Shown: positions 47,762 to 55,205 of the stretch, in pieces
Numbering within the stretch: position 1 is the first letter of the stretch
Layout of the letters: every line of letters begins with the position of its first letter
Made by a program: the position numbers and the translations under genes
Assembly: GCF_030408775.1 (NCBI RefSeq)
Contig: NZ_CP047210.1
Coordinates: forward strand, 1,798,001-1,862,000
Length of the DNA stretch: 64,000 nt
Direction of reading: 5' to 3'
Source of the DNA: Corynebacterium fournieri
GTDB taxonomy: Bacteria > Actinomycetota > Actinomycetes > Mycobacteriales > Mycobacteriaceae
Notes under the pieces: generated by a model
Databases searched by the model: none
What the model was told of the DNA's origin: nothing
What the model saw: only the letters and a program-made list of their open reading frames with translations

Positions 47762-47835
47762 GCCTCCATAGCTCAGTGGATTAGAGCATCCGGTTTCTAC
47801 CCGGCTGGTCGCGGGTTCGAATCCTGCTGGGGGCG
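47762..47835 (+). tRNA. tRNA-Arg(TCT)
   Basis: The acceptor GCCTCCA pairs with TGGGGGC. The anticodon loop TTTCTAC carries TCT, and the T-arm is CGCGGGTTCGAATCCTGC. CCA is not encoded. A TACAAT hexamer at 47746-47751 is the likely -10. The last 12 nt of the tRNA plus 4 nt beyond are the left copy of the 16-bp duplication made by the adjacent IS, so the tRNA is intact. Confidence 0.95.
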
Positions 47836-47839
47836 CTCT

Positions 47840-49271
47840 TGTCATGAGTCGCGTCATGCTTGACGCATGAGTCGCGACATGCTGGACGGACCGGCATCCC
47901 AGTTGTTTTTGTTCTGGGGTGCCGGTTTTGTTCATTTGGGGTGCAGTGGTGGGTCGCCGTGTTTCCAGTAGGCCTTTTGGTAGTCGCAGGCGGTGTCGAT
48001 GTAGTGCTCTGTGATGACTTCTCCGGTTTCGACCAGTGATGTGATGATGTGGTTGTCGGTGATGACCATGAGGATTTTCTTGTGTTTGTAGGCGCGTCCG
48101 ATGCCGAGGTGGAAGAGTTTGCCGGCGTAGCGCACGGAGACTTTGCCGTTTTTGTCGACTGTGTCGTTTCGGGTGCGCCATTCTTCTTTGGGGTTGTCGT
48201 TGGGTGTGGCTTTGACTCCGGTGGTGTATGCCTGCTGCGGGGTGCGTCTGCCTAGGGCGCGGTGGGGTCGGGTGCAGTTGTAGTATTGGCGAAACTCGTT
48301 GAGGAGTTGTTGCAGCTCATCGATGGTTTGTGCTGGGGGTCGGGCGGTGATCCATTTTTTGATGGTTTGGTGGAATCGCTCAATTTTTCCTTGGGTTTGG
48401 GGGTGGCCTGGCCGGCCGTTTTTCTGTTGGATTTTGTGTGCGACGAGCACTTTTTCGAATGCGTTTCGCCCGCCTTTGCGCCCGGCTAGGCGGGCGGTGA
48501 ACACCAGTCCGTTGTCCGTCAGCGTGGATGCTGGCGGGCCGTATGCGCCGATCAGGCGGGTGAGTTCGGCGGCGACGGCGGGGCCTGTAAATGCGGCGGC
48601 CGCGGTGATTGACAACAGGTATCGCGAGTGGTCGTCGAGGAAGTCGAGGACTTCTACCCGCGTGTTATCAGCGAGGAAGAGGTGGGTGATGTCGGCTTGC
48701 CAGCATTCGTTGGGCATCGCGGCTTCGAAGCGGATGTAGGAGCTTTTCGGCTTCTTTTGCGGCTGCGGGGTGATCAAGCCCTCGTTGGTGAGGATGCGGC
48801 GGATCGTTGAGGTTGAGGGGGCGCGTTTGCCGGCCTGTTCGAGGTGGTAGGCAATGGTTTCGGGCCCGGCGTCGAGTCCGTGTCGGGTGAGTTGTTTGCG
48901 GATGCTGATGATGTCGTTGCGTAGTGCTTCCGGGACGGCGTGCGGGTGGGTGTGCGGGGCGCGTGATTTCGGTGCGATTGCCTCGGCGCCGCCGGCGTCG
49001 TAGGCGTTGAGGATTTGGTGGACGCGTTGGCGCGAGATGCCGAATCGTTTGGCGACGTTGGTGGGTGTGCCGCCTTGGCCTCTGACGGCTCTGACGATGG
49101 CGATGTTGCGGTTAGGACTGTTCATAGTGTCAAACATGTCCCGACTCACCAGTCAAACGTCACCGACACGACTGAGGTAACCCTAAGTGTCAACTATGAC
49201 GCGACTGACCTGTCAAGGATCACAACGCCTTCCGCAGGCACACCCCGTCAAATATGTCGTGACTTCAGACA
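47840..49271 (-). mobile_element. IS481-family insertion sequence, copy 1 (in tRNA-Arg 3' end)
   Basis: A 1432-bp element bounded by TGT and ACA. The terminal inverted repeats begin TGTCATGAGTCGCGTCATG (left) and TGTCTGAAGTCACGACATA (right, reversed), with about 19 of 26 matches. A 16-bp target duplication, CTGCTGGGGGCGCTCT, lies at 47824-47839 and 49272-49287. The left duplication includes the last 12 nt of tRNA-Arg. It carries one transposase gene on the minus strand. Copy 2 at 53754-55185 appears identical at an offset of 5914 bp, so at least one move is recent. Confidence 0.95.
47932..49149 (-). CDS. IS481-family transposase (copy 1)
   Basis: A 405-residue DDE transposase. The N-terminal helix-turn-helix is TNVAKRFGISRQRVHQIL (residues 30-48). 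The catalytic triad is D153 (CWQADITHLF), D212 (TLTDNGLVF) and E257 (GKIERFHQTIKKW). The D-E spacing of 44 exceeds the usual 34-35 because of an insertion around RLAGRKGGRNAFEKV. Translation may start at GTG 49149 or ATG 49137 or 49125; the start lies within a subterminal repeat of the element, so the transposase could repress itself. The gene is antisense to the tRNA. Confidence 0.93.
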   Translation of the reverse strand: MSRDMFDTMNSPNRNIAIVRAVRGQGGTPTNVAKRFGISRQRVHQILNAYDAGGAEAIAPKSRAPHTHPHAVPEALRNDIISIRKQLTRHGLDAGPETIAYHLEQAGKRAPSTSTIRRILTNEGLITPQPQKKPKSSYIRFEAAMPNECWQADITHLFLADNTRVEVLDFLDDHSRYLLSITAAAAFTGPAVAAELTRLIGAYGPPASTLTDNGLVFTARLAGRKGGRNAFEKVLVAHKIQQKNGRPGHPQTQGKIERFHQTIKKWITARPPAQTIDELQQLLNEFRQYYNCTRPHRALGRRTPQQAYTTGVKATPNDNPKEEWRTRNDTVDKNGKVSVRYAGKLFHLGIGRAYKHKKILMVITDNHIITSLVETGEVITEHYIDTACDYQKAYWKHGDPPLHPK

Positions 49272-49287
49272 CTGCTGGGGGCGCTCT
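49272..49287. repeat. 16-bp target duplication and tRNA-Arg 3'-end duplicate
   Basis: This is an exact copy of 47824-47839. A third copy of its first 15 bases lies at 49721-49735. Together the three mark two separate insertions at the same tRNA-Arg 3' site. Confidence 0.95.
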
Positions 49288-49720
49288 GTGAAGTCTCGAG
49301 ACATCGTTCCTACGGTGTCTCGAGATTTTTTGTTTCTGGCGTGCCCCGGGGTGGGGTGTCTGGTGGTGTTTTGAGGGTTTGTGGGTGCTTGATTCCTGCT
49401 GGATTTGGCGGACCGTCGTGTGCCCCAGACGCTTTGGGATTACCTCCAAGGTGGGTTGATGCGGCATGAGCCCGTTGTGGAGCTGCATTGTGGCTTCAGG
49501 GAAGCACAGGCAGGAGCCTTTGCTTATCGACGAGCGTTCCGTCGCCGCTCAGAGCCGGTGCGTACGAGGAGCGGAACGATGTCTCACGACATGGCTTTTT
49601 GCCGTCGTGGGGCACTTCCGGCGCATTGCTTGCCCACCGGAACGATGTGGTGAGACATCCCCGCAGGACAAACCGGAACGATCTCATGAGACATGCGGAA
49701 CGATGTCACCGAACCAGACA
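49287..49720. mobile_element. Internally deleted remnant of a related IS at the same tRNA-Arg site
   Basis: The 434-bp segment starts TGTGAAGTCTCGAGACATCG and ends, reversed, TGTCTGGTTCGGTGACATCG, so it has TGT...ACA ends and shared GACATCGTTCC. It is flanked by CTGCTGGGGGCGCTC at 49272-49286 and 49721-49735. GGAACGAT followed by a CACGACAT or GAGACAT half recurs near 49571, 49639 and 49676, like subterminal transposase sites. No intact transposase frame remains. The intact copy later inserted at its left duplication. No other gene is seen between 49288 and 49934. Confidence 0.75.
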
Positions 49721-49753
49721 CTGCTGGGGGCGCTCATTTTTGCCTGTTCACCA

Positions 49754-49788
49754 CCGGCTCTCCGATATTTCGCGGAGGGCCGGTTTTT
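49754..49788 (+). terminator. Probable original tRNA-Arg terminator
   Basis: CCGGCTCTCCG and CGGAGGGCCGG form an 11-bp stem (one G-T pair) with an 8-nt loop, followed by TTTTTGTTT. It lies 19 bp beyond the third copy of the tRNA 3' end, where a terminator for the uninterrupted tRNA would be. It is now 1.9 kb from the tRNA. Confidence 0.8.
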
Positions 49789-49859
49789 GTTTGGCGGGTG
49801 CTTTCGGGGGCGGCCGGTTGCACGCCGCCGCGCCGTTTCCGTGAATGTTTTATGAGACT

Positions 49860-49880
49860 CGTATCCCACTATGCGATACG
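49860..49880. promoter_or_regulatory. Inverted repeat in the promoter region of the MHS transporter
   Basis: CGTATC and GATACG are 6-bp inverted repeats with a 9-bp spacer containing CACTATG. They lie 55 bp before the transporter start, in an AT-richer stretch, and could be a promoter-overlapping operator. Confidence 0.4.
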
Positions 49881-49934
49881 CTCGGCCCATAACGCGGGAC
49901 ACTGTCCCCATACGACGGAATGAAAGGACGGGCT

Positions 49935-51312
49935 ATGACCACAAGTGTCAAACACCACCCCACTGCCTCACCGGCGGCCACGCCCCGGGAGACCACCCCC
50001 GAGGAACGCCGTCGCGTCCGCGTCGCGTCCACCATCGGCATGACCATCGAGTTCTACGACTTCTACGCCTACGCCACCGCGGCGGTGGCAGTGTTTCCGT
50101 TCCTTTTCTTCCCCAAATCCGAGTCCAGCACGGTTTCGCTGCTGTCGTCGTTCGCCACGTTCGGCCTAGCGTTTATCGCCCGCCCGCTCGGCTCAGTGCT
50201 GTTCGGCCACTTCGGCGACAAAAATCGGCCGCAAGGCCACCCTGGTGGGCGCCCTGCTGACCATGGGCATCGCCACCTTCGTCATCGGCCTGCTGCCCAC
50301 CTACGCCCAGGCCGGCATCTGGGCACCGGCACTGCTGGCCCTGATGCGCTTCTGCCAGGGCCTGGGCCTGGGCGGCGAGTGGTCTGGTGCCGCCCTGCTG
50401 TCCACCGAAACCGCGGCGAAGGGCCGCCGCGCGTGGGCCGGCATGTGGCCGCAGCTCGGCGCGCCCTTCGGCTTCTTGCTGACCAACGGGCTGTTCCTCA
50501 TCCTGGTCACGGTGCTGGGTCACACCTCCGGCGACTTCGAGGGAGCGTTCATGCGCTGGGGCTGGCGCATCCCGTTCTTGCTGTCCATCGTCATGGTGAT
50601 CATCGGACTGTGGGTGCGCCTGCAGGTGGAAGAAACCCCGGTGTTCCAGCAGGTTGAGCAAACCGCCCAGAAGGCCGCCTCCCCGCTGGCCGAGGTGTTC
50701 AAGACCGCCTGGAAACCGCTGATCCAGGGCACGTTCATCATGGTCGGCTGCTACACACTGTTCTACATCGTGACCACGTGGTTCCTCTCCTACGGCATCG
50801 GCTCCGCCGAAGAGGGCGTGGGCCTGGGCATCGCATACCCGACCTTTTTGAAGCTGCAGCTGGTGTGCATCTTCGGATTCATGCTGGGCATCCCCGTCTC
50901 CGCGCACCTGGCCGACACCTACGGCCGCCGGTCGACGCTGGGGCTGACCTCCGTGGCCATCATCGCCTACGGACTGAGCTTCAAGTGGCTGCTCAACCCC
51001 GAGACGTTCACCATGGTCTCGCTCGGCATCTTCCTGTTCATCGGCATGGTGTTGATGGGCTTCATCTTTGGGCCGATGTCCGCGATCTTGCCGGAGCTGT
51101 TCCCCTCCAACGTGCGCTACACCGGCTCCGGAATCGCCTACAACGTCTCTTCCATCCTGGGTGCGGCGATCGCCCCGTTCATCGCCACCGCACTGAACGC
51201 AAATCACGGGCCGCAGGCGGTGGGCATCTACCTCGTCGTCGTCACCGTCATCTCGTTGGTGGCCATCCTGTCCGCGCCGGAGACCAAGCACCAGGAGATG
51301 CACGAGATCTAG
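49935..51312 (+). pseudogene. MHS-family (major facilitator) transporter, frameshifted
   Basis: A metabolite:H+ symporter gene broken by one extra base. The first frame gives MTTSVKHHPTASP through FEFYDFYAYATA-type helix 1 and FIARPLGSVLFGHFGDK. At an A5 run (50220-50224) the frame is lost; skipping one A restores the conserved GDKIGRKATLVGAL loop. It continues without stops for about 355 residues (LGLGGEWSGAALLSTE, LPELFPSNVRYTGSGIAYN). The full protein would be about 458 residues. GAAAGGACGG precedes ATG 49935. It may be a real mutation, a slippery tract or a sequencing error. Confidence 0.85.
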
Positions 51313-51429
51313 GCCGCCCTGCGCGCACGATCTGACATAAGCCGACAACAATATCCCCCCTACCAGCAGGTTTGAAACTGGACGGCCGTCCCAAATGTCA
51401 GATCGTGCGCATCCGTTGCTTTCCACACC

Positions 51430-51448
51430 GGAAAGTGTCATACTTTCC
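51430..51448. promoter_or_regulatory. Palindromic operator over the promoter of the membrane protein/regulator pair
   Basis: GGAAAGT-GTCAT-ACTTTCC is a perfect 7-bp inverted repeat with a 5-bp spacer. A CATACT -10-like hexamer (51439-51444) overlaps it, and ATG 51452 follows closely, so the message is probably leaderless and the palindrome would block transcription when bound. Confidence 0.75.
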
Positions 51449-51451
51449 CAC

Positions 51452-51871
51452 ATGGAAAACATCTCGAAAGAAGAGGCCCGCGCCGCCCTCGAGCAGGTGG
51501 ACGGCATCGAACACGCCACACAACGCAAACCGACCCCATTGTGGGTTTACGTAATCCTCGGGGCCAGCTTCGGCATCACCATCGCCGGGACAATCATGGA
51601 CTGGACGTATGTGTGGGCGCTGTTCGCGGCATCTTTCCTCGTCTCCATCGGCCTCGTTGCGTGGCAGCACAACCGCGACGTGCGCCCGAGCATGAAGCAG
51701 CCCATCCAGGAGGAGCCAAAAGTGAACTGGTTCGCAGCCCTGGCGCCCGCACTCCTCCTGCCGCTGACCTGGTTCATCCCGGAGGGCAGTGCAGTCGGCG
51801 CGATCATCGCCGGCACCATCTCCACCGTAGTCATCACGGCCGTCATGTACTACGAGGAGAAGCGCCGATGA
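51452..51871 (+). CDS. Small membrane protein paired with a winged-helix regulator
   Basis: A 139-residue protein with a cytosolic N-terminus (MENISKEEARAALEQVDGIE) and four probable helices in two pairs (about residues 30-50, 53-70, 90-105 and 110-130). No family was recognised. Its stop overlaps the downstream regulator start (ATGA), an arrangement typical of a regulator with its controlled or sensing membrane partner. Confidence 0.75.
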   Translation: MENISKEEARAALEQVDGIEHATQRKPTPLWVYVILGASFGITIAGTIMDWTYVWALFAASFLVSIGLVAWQHNRDVRPSMKQPIQEEPKVNWFAALAPALLLPLTWFIPEGSAVGAIIAGTISTVVITAVMYYEEKRR

Positions 51872-52182
51872 GCGGCATCGACCCTGTCATTCACCCTCTG
51901 GCGCGGCTGAAGATTTGTGCGACGCTCTACAGCGCGGGAGCCGTGGAGAAACAAACGTCCCGGCACGAAATGCGCTTCAGCTCCCTGAAAGACAAGGTGG
52001 ACCTGTCGGATTCGGCGCTGTCGAAGCAGCTGGCCACCTTGGAGGAGCACGGCTACGTCACGCGCTTTCGCGAGTACGGCTCGAGCCGAGCGAAGGACAC
52101 GGTGTGGGTCACGCTCACGGCAGACGGGGCGCGGGCCTTCGAAAACCACACGGCGGCGCTGCGCGAGATTGCGGGCGGGTAG
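51868..52182 (+). CDS. Winged-helix transcriptional regulator (HTH_34/MarR-like)
   Basis: A 104-residue one-domain regulator. MRFSSLKDKVDLSDSALSKQ and LATLEEHGYVTRFREYG form the helix-turn-helix and wing, with a Thr-rich C-terminal helix region (VWVTLTADGARAFENH). It is coupled to the small membrane protein and probably acts on the palindrome at 51430-51448. The ligand is unknown. Confidence 0.85.
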   Translation: MSGIDPVIHPLARLKICATLYSAGAVEKQTSRHEMRFSSLKDKVDLSDSALSKQLATLEEHGYVTRFREYGSSRAKDTVWVTLTADGARAFENHTAALREIAGG

Positions 52183-52192
52183 ATTCGTGCCC

Positions 52193-52999
52193 ATGAGTTT
52201 TCCCTCCCCCGCACCCGACCGTTTCGCGCTGATCACCGGCGCAAGCCAAGGCATCGGCGAGGCTGTCGCCCGCCAGCTCGCGGCCGAAGGCCACAATTTG
52301 ATCATCGTCGCTCGCCGTGAGGAGGTGCTGCAAAAGCTTGGCGACGAGCTCTCGCACACCCACGGCATCGATGTGGAAATCTTCGCCGGGGATCTGTCCA
52401 AGCAGCGCGACGTCGACGCGCTGCTTCAGCACATTGCGCAGCGCACGATCCACATCTGCGTCAACTCCGCCGGCATCGCCAGCTTCGGCCCGTTCATGCG
52501 CCAGGACTGGGACTACGAGACGAACCAGTTCAACCTGAACGCCACCGCGGTGTTCCGCATTACCAAGGCCGTGCTGGACCAGATGGTCCCGCGCGGTGAA
52601 GGTGCCCTGTGCAACGTCGGCTCCGCGGCCGGCAACCTGCCGATCCCGAACAACGCCACCTACGTGTTCACCAAAGCCGGCGTGAACATGTTCACCGAGG
52701 CACTGCACTACGAGCTGAAGGACTCCGGCGTGCACGTCACGCTGCTCGCCCCGGGGCCAGTGCGCGAGGCCTACATCCCGGAAGAAGAGCAGTCCATCGT
52801 GGACAAGGTCGTGCCGGACTTTTTGTGGACCACCTACGAGTCCTGCGCCGCCGACACCATCGCCGCCATGCGCAAGAACCGCCGCCGCATCGTGCCGGGT
52901 CCGCTTTCGAAGGCCATGGATGTGGTCTCCAACTACGCGCCGCGCGGCGTGTTGCCGCCGATTATGGGCAAGTTCTACGCCCAGATGGGAGAGGAATAG
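52193..52999 (+). CDS. cmrA: Mycolate reductase CmrA (short-chain dehydrogenase)
   Basis: A 268-residue SDR. It has the Rossmann motif ALITGASQGIGEAVARQLA, NSAGIASFG, the catalytic serine in GSAAGNLPIPNNATY and the YVFTKAGVN YxxxK motif. The family and position beside orn match C. glutamicum CmrA and mycobacterial Rv2509, which reduce the beta-keto group in the last step of mycolate synthesis. TAGATT ends 5 bp before ATG 52193, suggesting leaderless translation. orn starts directly after the stop. Confidence 0.85.
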   Translation: MSFPSPAPDRFALITGASQGIGEAVARQLAAEGHNLIIVARREEVLQKLGDELSHTHGIDVEIFAGDLSKQRDVDALLQHIAQRTIHICVNSAGIASFGPFMRQDWDYETNQFNLNATAVFRITKAVLDQMVPRGEGALCNVGSAAGNLPIPNNATYVFTKAGVNMFTEALHYELKDSGVHVTLLAPGPVREAYIPEEEQSIVDKVVPDFLWTTYESCAADTIAAMRKNRRRIVPGPLSKAMDVVSNYAPRGVLPPIMGKFYAQMGEE

Positions 53000-53629
53000 A
53001 TGGACATCGCCGCCAAAGACAACCGCATCGTCTGGGTCGACCTGGAGATGACGGGGCTCGATCCCGCCCGCCACGTCATCGTTGAGGTTGCAGCGCTGGT
53101 CACGGACGCGGAGCTGAACATCATCGACGAGGGCGTGGACCTGGTCGTGCACGCCACCGACGCTGAGCTCGCGGAGATGGACGACTTTGTCACCCAGATG
53201 CACTCCGAAAACGGTCTGTTGGACGACATCAAGGCGTCCGCCGTCAGTATCGAGCAGGCGGAGGATGCGGTGCTCGAGCTCGTCGAAAAGCACTGCGACC
53301 CCGCACACCCCGCCCCGCTGGCCGGCAACTCCATCGCCACCGACCGCACGTTCATCCGCGCGCAGATGCCGCGCCTCGACGCAGCGCTGCACTACCGCAT
53401 GATCGACGTCTCCACGGTCAAGGAGCTGTCGCGCCGCTGGTTCCCGCAGGCGTACTACAACCAGCCGCAAAAAGGGATGGCGCACCGCGCTTTGGCCGAC
53501 ATTGTGGAGTCCATCCGCGAGCTGGATTACTACCGCCGCGCCGTGTTCGTCCCCTCCCCCGGCCCGGATGCGCAGGCGGCAGGTGACGCCGCCCACGGCG
53601 CAACCGACGCCTACCAGCCGTTTTTGTGA
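53000..53629 (+). CDS. orn: Oligoribonuclease
   Basis: A 209-residue DEDDh exonuclease that degrades 2-5-nt RNAs, including the pGpG product of c-di-GMP turnover. Active-site motifs are [26 protein letters not shown] and the late [14 protein letters not shown] with the catalytic His-Asp. It immediately follows cmrA (no gap). Confidence 0.95.
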
Positions 53630-53675
53630 AAGCACGGTGAGGGGCTAAGGTATATCCCGCTGCAAAAACAGCGAT

Positions 53676-53749
53676 GGTGGCTGTAGTTCAGCTGGTAGAG
53701 CACCAGGTTGTGATCCTGGGTGTCGCGGGTTCGAGTCCCGTCAGCCACC
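53676..53749 (+). tRNA. tRNA-His(GTG)
   Basis: The encoded G-1 (53676) precedes the acceptor GTGGCTG, which pairs with CAGCCAC; the discriminator is C. The anticodon loop TTGTGAT carries GTG, and the T-arm is CGCGGGTTCGAGTCCCGT. CCA is not encoded. TATATC at 53651-53656 is the likely -10. The 3' 12 nt belong to the left copy of the 16-bp duplication of IS copy 2. Confidence 0.95.
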
Positions 53750-53753
53750 CCGA

Positions 53754-55185
53754 TGTCATGAGTCGCGTCATGCTTGACGCATGAGTCGCGACATGCTGGA
53801 CGGACCGGCATCCCAGTTGTTTTTGTTCTGGGGTGCCGGTTTTGTTCATTTGGGGTGCAGTGGTGGGTCGCCGTGTTTCCAGTAGGCCTTTTGGTAGTCG
53901 CAGGCGGTGTCGATGTAGTGCTCTGTGATGACTTCTCCGGTTTCGACCAGTGATGTGATGATGTGGTTGTCGGTGATGACCATGAGGATTTTCTTGTGTT
54001 TGTAGGCGCGTCCGATGCCGAGGTGGAAGAGTTTGCCGGCGTAGCGCACGGAGACTTTGCCGTTTTTGTCGACTGTGTCGTTTCGGGTGCGCCATTCTTC
54101 TTTGGGGTTGTCGTTGGGTGTGGCTTTGACTCCGGTGGTGTATGCCTGCTGCGGGGTGCGTCTGCCTAGGGCGCGGTGGGGTCGGGTGCAGTTGTAGTAT
54201 TGGCGAAACTCGTTGAGGAGTTGTTGCAGCTCATCGATGGTTTGTGCTGGGGGTCGGGCGGTGATCCATTTTTTGATGGTTTGGTGGAATCGCTCAATTT
54301 TTCCTTGGGTTTGGGGGTGGCCTGGCCGGCCGTTTTTCTGTTGGATTTTGTGTGCGACGAGCACTTTTTCGAATGCGTTTCGCCCGCCTTTGCGCCCGGC
54401 TAGGCGGGCGGTGAACACCAGTCCGTTGTCCGTCAGCGTGGATGCTGGCGGGCCGTATGCGCCGATCAGGCGGGTGAGTTCGGCGGCGACGGCGGGGCCT
54501 GTAAATGCGGCGGCCGCGGTGATTGACAACAGGTATCGCGAGTGGTCGTCGAGGAAGTCGAGGACTTCTACCCGCGTGTTATCAGCGAGGAAGAGGTGGG
54601 TGATGTCGGCTTGCCAGCATTCGTTGGGCATCGCGGCTTCGAAGCGGATGTAGGAGCTTTTCGGCTTCTTTTGCGGCTGCGGGGTGATCAAGCCCTCGTT
54701 GGTGAGGATGCGGCGGATCGTTGAGGTTGAGGGGGCGCGTTTGCCGGCCTGTTCGAGGTGGTAGGCAATGGTTTCGGGCCCGGCGTCGAGTCCGTGTCGG
54801 GTGAGTTGTTTGCGGATGCTGATGATGTCGTTGCGTAGTGCTTCCGGGACGGCGTGCGGGTGGGTGTGCGGGGCGCGTGATTTCGGTGCGATTGCCTCGG
54901 CGCCGCCGGCGTCGTAGGCGTTGAGGATTTGGTGGACGCGTTGGCGCGAGATGCCGAATCGTTTGGCGACGTTGGTGGGTGTGCCGCCTTGGCCTCTGAC
55001 GGCTCTGACGATGGCGATGTTGCGGTTAGGACTGTTCATAGTGTCAAACATGTCCCGACTCACCAGTCAAACGTCACCGACACGACTGAGGTAACCCTAA
55101 GTGTCAACTATGACGCGACTGACCTGTCAAGGATCACAACGCCTTCCGCAGGCACACCCCGTCAAATATGTCGTGACTTCAGACA
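53754..55185 (-). mobile_element. IS481-family insertion sequence, copy 2 (in tRNA-His 3' end)
   Basis: Apparently identical to copy 1 in length (1432 bp), ends and transposase. The 16-bp duplication CCGTCAGCCACCCCGA lies at 53738-53753 and 55186-55201. As in copy 1, the duplication takes in the last 12 nt of the tRNA and 4 nt beyond, and the element points the same way relative to the tRNA. The tRNA gene stays intact but its own terminator is now 1.45 kb away. Confidence 0.95.
53846..55063 (-). CDS. IS481-family transposase (copy 2)
   Basis: The 405-residue product is identical to copy 1 (D153, D212, E257; N-terminal helix-turn-helix at residues 30-48). Full identity including shadow frames suggests recent transposition or gene conversion. 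Start choices are the same as for copy 1. Confidence 0.93.
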   Translation of the reverse strand: MSRDMFDTMNSPNRNIAIVRAVRGQGGTPTNVAKRFGISRQRVHQILNAYDAGGAEAIAPKSRAPHTHPHAVPEALRNDIISIRKQLTRHGLDAGPETIAYHLEQAGKRAPSTSTIRRILTNEGLITPQPQKKPKSSYIRFEAAMPNECWQADITHLFLADNTRVEVLDFLDDHSRYLLSITAAAAFTGPAVAAELTRLIGAYGPPASTLTDNGLVFTARLAGRKGGRNAFEKVLVAHKIQQKNGRPGHPQTQGKIERFHQTIKKWITARPPAQTIDELQQLLNEFRQYYNCTRPHRALGRRTPQQAYTTGVKATPNDNPKEEWRTRNDTVDKNGKVSVRYAGKLFHLGIGRAYKHKKILMVITDNHIITSLVETGEVITEHYIDTACDYQKAYWKHGDPPLHPK

Positions 55186-55205
55186 CCGTCAGCCACCCCG
55201 AAGAT

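Follow-up and report, generated by a model that had tools for sequence, protein, structure and literature searches.

Two tRNA genes in a stretch of 64,000 nt from Corynebacterium fournieri (NZ_CP047210.1; hereafter the window, whose positions are used below) carry the same insertion sequence (IS) of 1432 bp in their 3′ ends. Comparison with relatives in other genomes makes it highly probable that this IS represents a clade of the IS481 family specialised in tRNA genes, in which a one-gene element would recognise DNA of the T-arm, and the target duplication arising upon insertion would complete the interrupted tRNA gene. The features concerned, all on the forward strand except the transposase gene, are the following.

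47762..47836, +, tRNA-Arg(tct), target 1 (ARAGORN)
47814..47823, +, T-arm core GGTTCGAATC of target 1, tRNA nt 52-61, the 10 nt immediately 5′ of the duplication
47824..47839, +, left target duplication of copy 1, CTGCTGGGGGCGCTCT, tRNA nt 62-73 plus 4, completing tRNA-Arg
47840..49271, +, IS copy 1, 1432 bp, TGTCATGAGTCG..TTCAGACA
47843..47888, +, left end of IS copy 1, two tandem end repeats like ATGAGTCGCGACATGnTTGAC, spaced 23 bp
47890..47926, +, inverted repeat with a T-rich tail after it, close to the left end; possibly a substitute terminator for the tRNA
47932..49149, -, IS481-family DDE transposase, 405 aa; segment ~309-405 as candidate reader of the target
49272..49287, +, right duplication of IS copy 1; its base 16 is base 1 of the 434-bp element
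49287..49720, +, 434-bp non-autonomous element without transposase, resembling a miniature inverted-repeat transposable element, TGTGAAGTCTCG..CCGAACCAGACA
49721..49735, +, third copy of the tRNA-Arg duplication, 15 bp, on the right side of the 434-bp element
53677..53751, +, tRNA-His(gtg), target 2, sole full copy in the genome (ARAGORN)
53728..53737, +, T-arm core GGTTCGAGTC of target 2, immediately 5′ of the duplication
53738..53753, +, left target duplication of copy 2, CCGTCAGCCACCCCGA
53754..55185, +, IS copy 2, identical to copy 1
55186..55201, +, right target duplication of copy 2

The Element and its Copies in the Genome

The first-pass annotation of this DNA had described two identical IS481-family elements placed at the same offset in two tRNA 3′ ends, each with a 16-bp duplication that covers the last 12 nt of the gene, through the discriminator, plus 4 nt beyond. 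All of this is borne out: the two copies are sequence-identical over 1432 bp and lie in the same orientation, the composition of the duplication holds at tRNA-Arg as well as at tRNA-His, and both duplications begin at nt 62 if GGTTCGANTC is taken, as we assume from standard tRNA numbering, to be G52 to C61. Between its TGT..ACA inverted ends, which agree at 15 of 22 positions (measured on the copy L003), the element has one transposase open reading frame (ORF) of 405 aa, oriented toward the tRNA in both copies; other ORFs wholly inside the element reach at most 146 aa and overlap the transposase in other frames or strands. At the right end there are three end repeats, at offsets 4, 62 and 122, more widely spaced than those of the left end.

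The transposase scores 259.3 bits against the NCBIfam model of the family (NF033577, cut-off 224) and has rve, rve_3 and helix-turn-helix (HTH) matches in Pfam. D153, D212 and E257 are invariant across 53 aligned members and, judged from their position within the rve match, presumably form the acidic catalytic triad. The element is an IS481-family insertion sequence with a DDE transposase. No tyrosine recombinase was found, the above-cut-off matches of the transposase being to the DDE core and HTH-type domains only; nor were Tn7-like selector or regulator genes (TniQ/TnsD, TnsC) met in a family search that covered the transposase only. Thus, the integrase-like behaviour noticed in the first-pass annotation is a functional likeness and does not extend to the enzyme. 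Duplications of 15-17 bp lie at and slightly over the range quoted for IS481 elements, namely 2-15 bp, mostly 6, with ~15 bp in some members (PMC10045372).

Five identical copies of the IS are present in the genome, a single contig of 2,389,603 bases: in tRNA-Arg(tct), tRNA-His, tRNA-Ser(gga), tRNA-Arg(acg) and a non-tRNA site, L003. The copies in tRNA-Ser(gga) and tRNA-Arg(acg) have the same tRNA offset as those of the window, and since two of three further identical copies are so placed, the pattern is more than chance. The duplication is 16 bp long in four of the five copies and 15 bp in the other (L005). A second IS of the clade, whose transposase is 42% identical, occupies another tRNA-Arg(acg) (L071, the same place as L006), and the 434-bp element is found three times, always at a tRNA 3′ end. 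If fragments are excluded, eight of nine full-length elements in this genome are in tRNAs.

Sites of the Clade in Other Genomes

Relatives were searched in 242 genomes of the genus, 301 of the family, 298 of the order and 396 of the phylum, in overlapping sets, with E limits of 1e-60, 1e-50, 1e-40 and 1e-40, respectively, among the candidates listed per genome; one extra scan of genome contigs contributed 35 loci. The returned loci and 100 fetched regions were analysed, some weaker or partial places being left aside. Sites were counted among matches of at least 40% identity, without 24 loci assigned outside the clade, a placement that rests on transposase trees; among the matches below 40% that were inspected, none was at a T-arm.

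The target duplication was resolved at 88 distinct clade sites. Of these, 73 are whole tRNA genes by ARAGORN, nine are T-arms without a whole tRNA, three have GGTTC only and three have neither, so that the wider look at other copies and related genomes suggested by the first-pass annotation gives four of five copies in the own genome and 82 of 88 clade sites at T-arms. At the nine fragment sites the 3′ part of a tRNA with its T-arm is kept and the preceding sequence is not tRNA; such tRNA 3′ fragments are the kind of remnant left by integrated islands. The 73 whole genes comprise 11 isotypes (Arg 26, Leu 12, Ser 10, Pro 6, Gly 6, Val 4, Thr 3, Ala 3, His 1, Trp 1, Lys 1). The 26 Arg targets look like more than Arg would claim by its share of tRNA genes.

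It is the register that makes these sites alike. At 81 of the 82 T-arm sites, the first base of the duplication lies 9 nt beyond the start of G53, at tRNA position 62; at the remaining one, L074, the duplication begins one base earlier, within a run of C. It is 16 bp long at 44 sites, 15 bp at 31 and 17 bp at 7, and its two copies differ by one mismatch at five of the 82. Duplication calls of 4-8 bp were rejected as chance fits where the real ends had been missed, and so were calls of 18-24 bp, which came from stacked or nested copies or from chance identity with a neighbour. The element has one orientation at all 82 sites, and a pattern scan of 198 hit groups, which misses TGTGAAG ends, gave 123 forward T-arms and no reverse one.

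Among 83 loci without a duplication, 54 have a T-arm 15-17 nt 5′ of the left end; ten of them repeat sites already counted, leaving 44 additional T-arm loci without a recovered duplication. Another 28 rows show neither duplication nor T-arm and were left uncounted. In 24 of these the left end cannot be recognised by pattern, contig ends, truncation and decay being among the causes, and L144 is probably a distal stacked copy. On plasmids (E up to 1e-60, 72,556 records) there was a single match, at a T-arm without a whole tRNA, while no relative was found in phage records at E 1e-30. Viral contigs gave 39 loci; the result there covers only L267, a close relative (47% identity) with the T-arm of a tRNA-Pro at its left end.

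One Clade and its Sister Groups

A tree of 95 representative transposases unites the T-arm rows in one clade of 58 rows, with a value of 100 in the Shimodaira-Hasegawa-like approximate likelihood ratio test (SH-aLRT); all trees are of the quick type without bootstrap. The clade comprises 47 T-arm rows, 10 unlabelled ones and one with GGTTC outside a tRNA. A cluster of near-identical proteins counted as T-arm whenever one of its members showed a T-arm at the left end, which hides sites such as L003 and L080. If the C-terminal domain is left out (columns up to residue 308), the clade is retained with 54 of 90 rows and SH-aLRT 99, and if L198, L212, L203, L222 and L223 are added, all five stand outside it (55 of 97 rows, SH-aLRT 100). 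T-arm-targeting members form one clade, independently of the putative target domain. They occur in Corynebacterium, Nocardioides, Kribbella, Glycomyces, Micropruina and on an Arthrobacter plasmid, and also in genomes from other families of the order, from the class and from elsewhere in the phylum. A record titled Helcobacillus massiliensis (Micrococcales), and so of another order than Corynebacterium (Mycobacteriales), has an element 95% identical, with seven of eight copies in tRNAs. The loci of that record (L124-L130, L138) might reflect a recent transfer from one order to the other; alternatively, the record could be contaminated or mislabelled.

Several sister groups also make long duplications, mostly of 14-16 bp, at sites that are not T-arms. 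Thus, both the long duplication and the choice of particular sites probably predate tRNA targeting, with the T-arm as a new target. At 13 of 26 sister sites (L110, L112, L116, L123, L198, L199, L212-L216, L219, L220) the duplication is palindromic at 0.53 or more (0.53-0.88), and the mean palindromy is 0.46 for sisters, 0.27 for shuffles and 0.25 for tRNA targets. At L198, L212-L216, L110 and L123, 15-bp duplications lie in imperfect palindromes such as CGGCGCTGACCGCCG and GATCGCTGCGCGACG, preceded by flanks like GGAGYGYTA or GGTGCGCTA, perhaps a genomic repeat family; at L199, L219 and L220, GTCGTGAGTGAGAAA is each time followed by a 16-bp near-palindrome, CAGnGTTnTAACnCTG or similar.

Which Part of the Transposase Reads the Target?

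Transposases were compared at a matched catalytic-domain identity of 44-53%. For residues 318-362, identity is 38% inside the clade (714 pairs), and 17% between clade and sisters (218 pairs) as well as among sisters (28 pairs). The corresponding values are 35, 27 and 36% for the HTH, and 42, 38 and 36% for the linker. R325, R327 and D329 are each present in 54 of 55 clade members, and R340, found in 53 of 55, sits in an insert that is missing from all 34 sisters. The C-terminal region (~309-405) therefore appears the best candidate for the target reader, as a correlation only. When solved structures were searched by sequence, 130 matches were obtained; the best 60 stay within residues ~92-300, comprising the catalytic core and the stretch preceding it, and do not reach the C-terminal domain. 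In the 600-aa sister transposases L228 and L177, the alignment appears to show repeated C-terminal segments like the candidate reader.

Could the reader instead be the N-terminal HTH region or another part of the protein? The HTH, too, loses identity toward the sisters, and clade-specific residues are found outside the C-terminal domain (P60, A94, T98, H102, S137, A143, K243, R297, R301, K313). However, the drop is much steeper in 318-362, and the HTH of this transposase superfamily is expected to bind the element ends, so that such a reader is rather unlikely, though well worth keeping in mind.

Linear Sequence or Hairpin?

Sites outside tRNAs tell what may be dispensable in the target. L003 (GGTTCTAAAG/CC), L040 (GGTTCGATGG/CC) and L076 (GGTTCGTCGG/CT) keep GGTTC at -10 to -6, while L080, L126 and L106 have no GGTTC in register. 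L106 is probably a decayed tRNA end, to judge from its duplication, which is a tRNA-Leu end like that of L101. If it is excluded, GGTTC is in register at three of five non-tRNA sites, with a chance of ~1e-8 calculated post hoc. GGTTC at -10 to -6, usually with C at +1, seems to form the core signal. T60 is found at 79 of 82 T-arm targets and at 31 of the 40 tRNAs of the own genome that bear the motif (Fisher p 0.002), an enrichment that, being compared across different genomes, is only suggestive. GGTTCRANYC occurs 103 times in the own genome; among 100 listed sites 40 are inside tRNAs and 60 outside, and the T60 and chance analysis used 92 of these 100, leaving out 8 placed outside tRNAs.

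It might be possible that the T-arm is recognised as a hairpin, either as cruciform DNA or in the tRNA itself, and not as linear sequence. A T-stem is present in every tRNA, several sister groups target palindromes well above the level of shuffles, and an IS481 element of Pseudomonas fluorescens inserts at repetitive extragenic palindromic (REP) sequences (PMC11708052). Against this, the nine 3′ fragments lack the rest of the tRNA, though they keep the T-stem. T-stem base pairs number 2, 3, 3, 3 and 2 of 5 at the five non-tRNA sites, where ~1.9 would be expected, and three of these sites have GGTTC in register. With pairing near chance and GGTTC kept, linear DNA is the best reading of the target; the hairpin was rejected as the signal, and we regard its recognition as improbable.

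The first-pass annotation had proposed recognition of the T-arm with cutting at a fixed distance. This is largely supported by the sites compared, but what is needed is less than was thought: a whole tRNA is unnecessary, as the nine fragment sites indicate, and so is the full GGTTCGANTCC, as indicated by L003, L040 and L076 with GGTTC only. Copies in unrelated sequence without that motif beside the duplication were to speak against the proposal, and, read strictly, L003, L040, L076, L080 and L126 are such copies, five sites against 82.

How May the Element Enter a tRNA Gene?

Comparison of the sites shows where the cuts would fall: one strand at a fixed place between tRNA nt 61 and 62, ten bases from the start of GGTTC, and the second strand 15-17 bp beyond it, roughly at the CCA position or slightly after. 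Probably, the transposase itself makes the recognition, most likely via its C-terminal domain (~309-405, with R325, R327, D329 and R340), and would recognise linear T-arm DNA through GGTTC and usually C at nt 62, with a further preference for tRNA context. The unequal ends, two repeats at the left and three at the right, may help set the orientation. Staggered strand transfer followed by gap repair, as in DDE transposases generally, would then yield the duplication. A more specific version, to which we would give slightly less than an even chance, is that a modular C-terminal domain reads the T-arm (box-B) DNA and that the long duplication has been fitted to the distance from T-loop to CCA, in a clade spread across Actinomycetota.

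Recruitment of the transposase by a host protein at tRNA genes, or by tRNA transcription, as for Ty1/Ty3 in yeast, would explain why tRNAs are preferred over equal motifs elsewhere. However, 3′ fragments of tRNAs that lack the 5′ half serve as targets, including one on a plasmid, near-identical elements keep their choice in Corynebacterium and in the Helcobacillus-titled record, and the register is precise to the base, all of which makes such recruitment quite improbable. That insertion is random and the survivors are simply those leaving tRNAs and other genes intact is hardly credible: although insertions elsewhere in compact genomes are often harmful, and none of the nine full-length elements is at the 60 listed non-tRNA motif sites, the exact register and fixed orientation go beyond what selection alone would give, intergenic sites of any sequence would be equally harmless, and sister elements are not at T-arms.

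Several observations weigh against T-arm recognition by this clade as proposed here, or against one of its parts. L043, L099 and L146 lack a T-arm although their left end can be recognised, and look like genuine exceptions or rearrangements. L126, a relative of 94-95% with a perfect 15-bp duplication, lacks GGTTC, and L080 has GGATC in its place. The 60 motif sites mentioned above hold none of the nine full-length elements, and the three GGTTC-only sites of the clade do not fit RANYC; the motif alone is thus insufficient, and selection or further context must contribute. The clade-specific residues outside the C-terminal domain, the 13 of 26 sister duplications that are not palindromic, and the fact that terminator-like hairpins (below) are not universal at left ends belong here, too.

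Effect on the tRNA Genes

The left duplication rebuilds the tRNA 3′ end. The interrupted tRNA-His locus is presumably functional because there is no second full copy of this gene in the genome. For tRNA-Arg(tct), also, a second full copy was not found in the genome, the next best matches being partial at 84% and 76%. At the tRNA-His loci of 11 relatives, seven fit the search pattern, of which five are without the element and two have a related left end there. Terminator-like hairpins (loop up to 12, tRNA strand) are present at 29 of 49 distinct left ends as compared with 43 of 196 internal control segments, and it is mainly in the corynebacterial group that the longest stems occur; a stock terminator scan, restricted to loops of 3-8, did not list the hairpin at 47890..47926. 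In part of the clade, such a left-end hairpin may substitute for the displaced terminator of the tRNA.

Stacking at One tRNA and the 434-bp Element

Both ends of the 434-bp element match the IS at L071, of which it is probably an internal-deletion derivative. At tRNA-Arg(tct), base 16 of the IS duplication, in the left as well as the right copy, is the first base of the 434-bp element, and the flank past that element has A at this position; it follows that the 434-bp element arrived first and the IS then landed between it and the tRNA. Another element lies directly past the duplication at 13 of the 88 clade sites, and at the four of these that are informative the element nearer the tRNA is the younger one. 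A third copy of the duplication past the stacked element was recovered at 2 of 88 sites, many flanks being too short for it. The right copy of the duplication has no GGTTC and would offer no new target, so later elements would settle between the tRNA and the older ones. Elements of two subfamilies, with transposases ~42% identical, share tRNAs and stack in the window (47840-49720) and at L011, L028, L039 and L058. A partial relative of the 434-bp element (L251, G000:C1:1078567-1078817) adjoins another tRNA gene (1078830-1078903).

Relation to Known Systems

Islands and prophages with tyrosine recombinases also enter tRNA genes at the 3′ end and keep the tRNA intact. They recombine via an attachment copy that they carry, whereas here a DDE enzyme copies the target afresh. 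In eukaryotes, the Ty1/Ty3 and Dictyostelium TRE retrotransposons use tRNA genes as general safe havens; they insert outside the gene via RNA polymerase III factors, whereas here the gene is cut within the T-arm region and made complete again by the duplication. With other IS481 members the element shares a single DDE transposase, TGT..ACA ends, a length of ~1.3-1.5 kb and the duplications of ~15 bp recorded for some of them (PMC10045372). It differs in its target, which is NCTAGN for ISLxc2 (PMC2516522) and REP sequences for the element of P. fluorescens SBW25 (PMC11708052). The word tRNA is absent from the main text of PMC10045372 and PMC2516522. Tn7-like elements and CRISPR-associated transposons (CASTs) at tRNA attachment sites likewise combine DDE transposition with tRNA genes as safe sites, but they have several genes and a separate selector, TnsD/TniQ or CRISPR RNA (PMC11406308), in contrast to one gene and 11 isotypes here. 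A full-text literature search of partial coverage did not find T-arm targeting by an insertion sequence, and earlier notice is possible.

Concluding Remarks

Bacterial insertion sequences are usually viewed as insertional mutagens whose target preferences are weak or simple. The clade described here, found in several families of Actinomycetota, uses an essential and universal class of genes as a renewable home by means of the position and length of its duplication, and the element can thereby occupy genes that are needed, apparently without disrupting them. Among bacteria, the clade is a counterpart of the retrotransposons that seek tRNA genes, apparently managing with one protein. As sisters with similar duplication lengths pick other sites, target reading by a DDE transposase becomes testable, and simple integration tools could come from it for hosts with ordinary tRNA genes. 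If a modular domain does read the T-arm, target choice in IS481 elements would be a swappable module, directed to palindromes or to T-arms, and a single protein would make a safe-harbour integrating system for nearly any tRNA gene.

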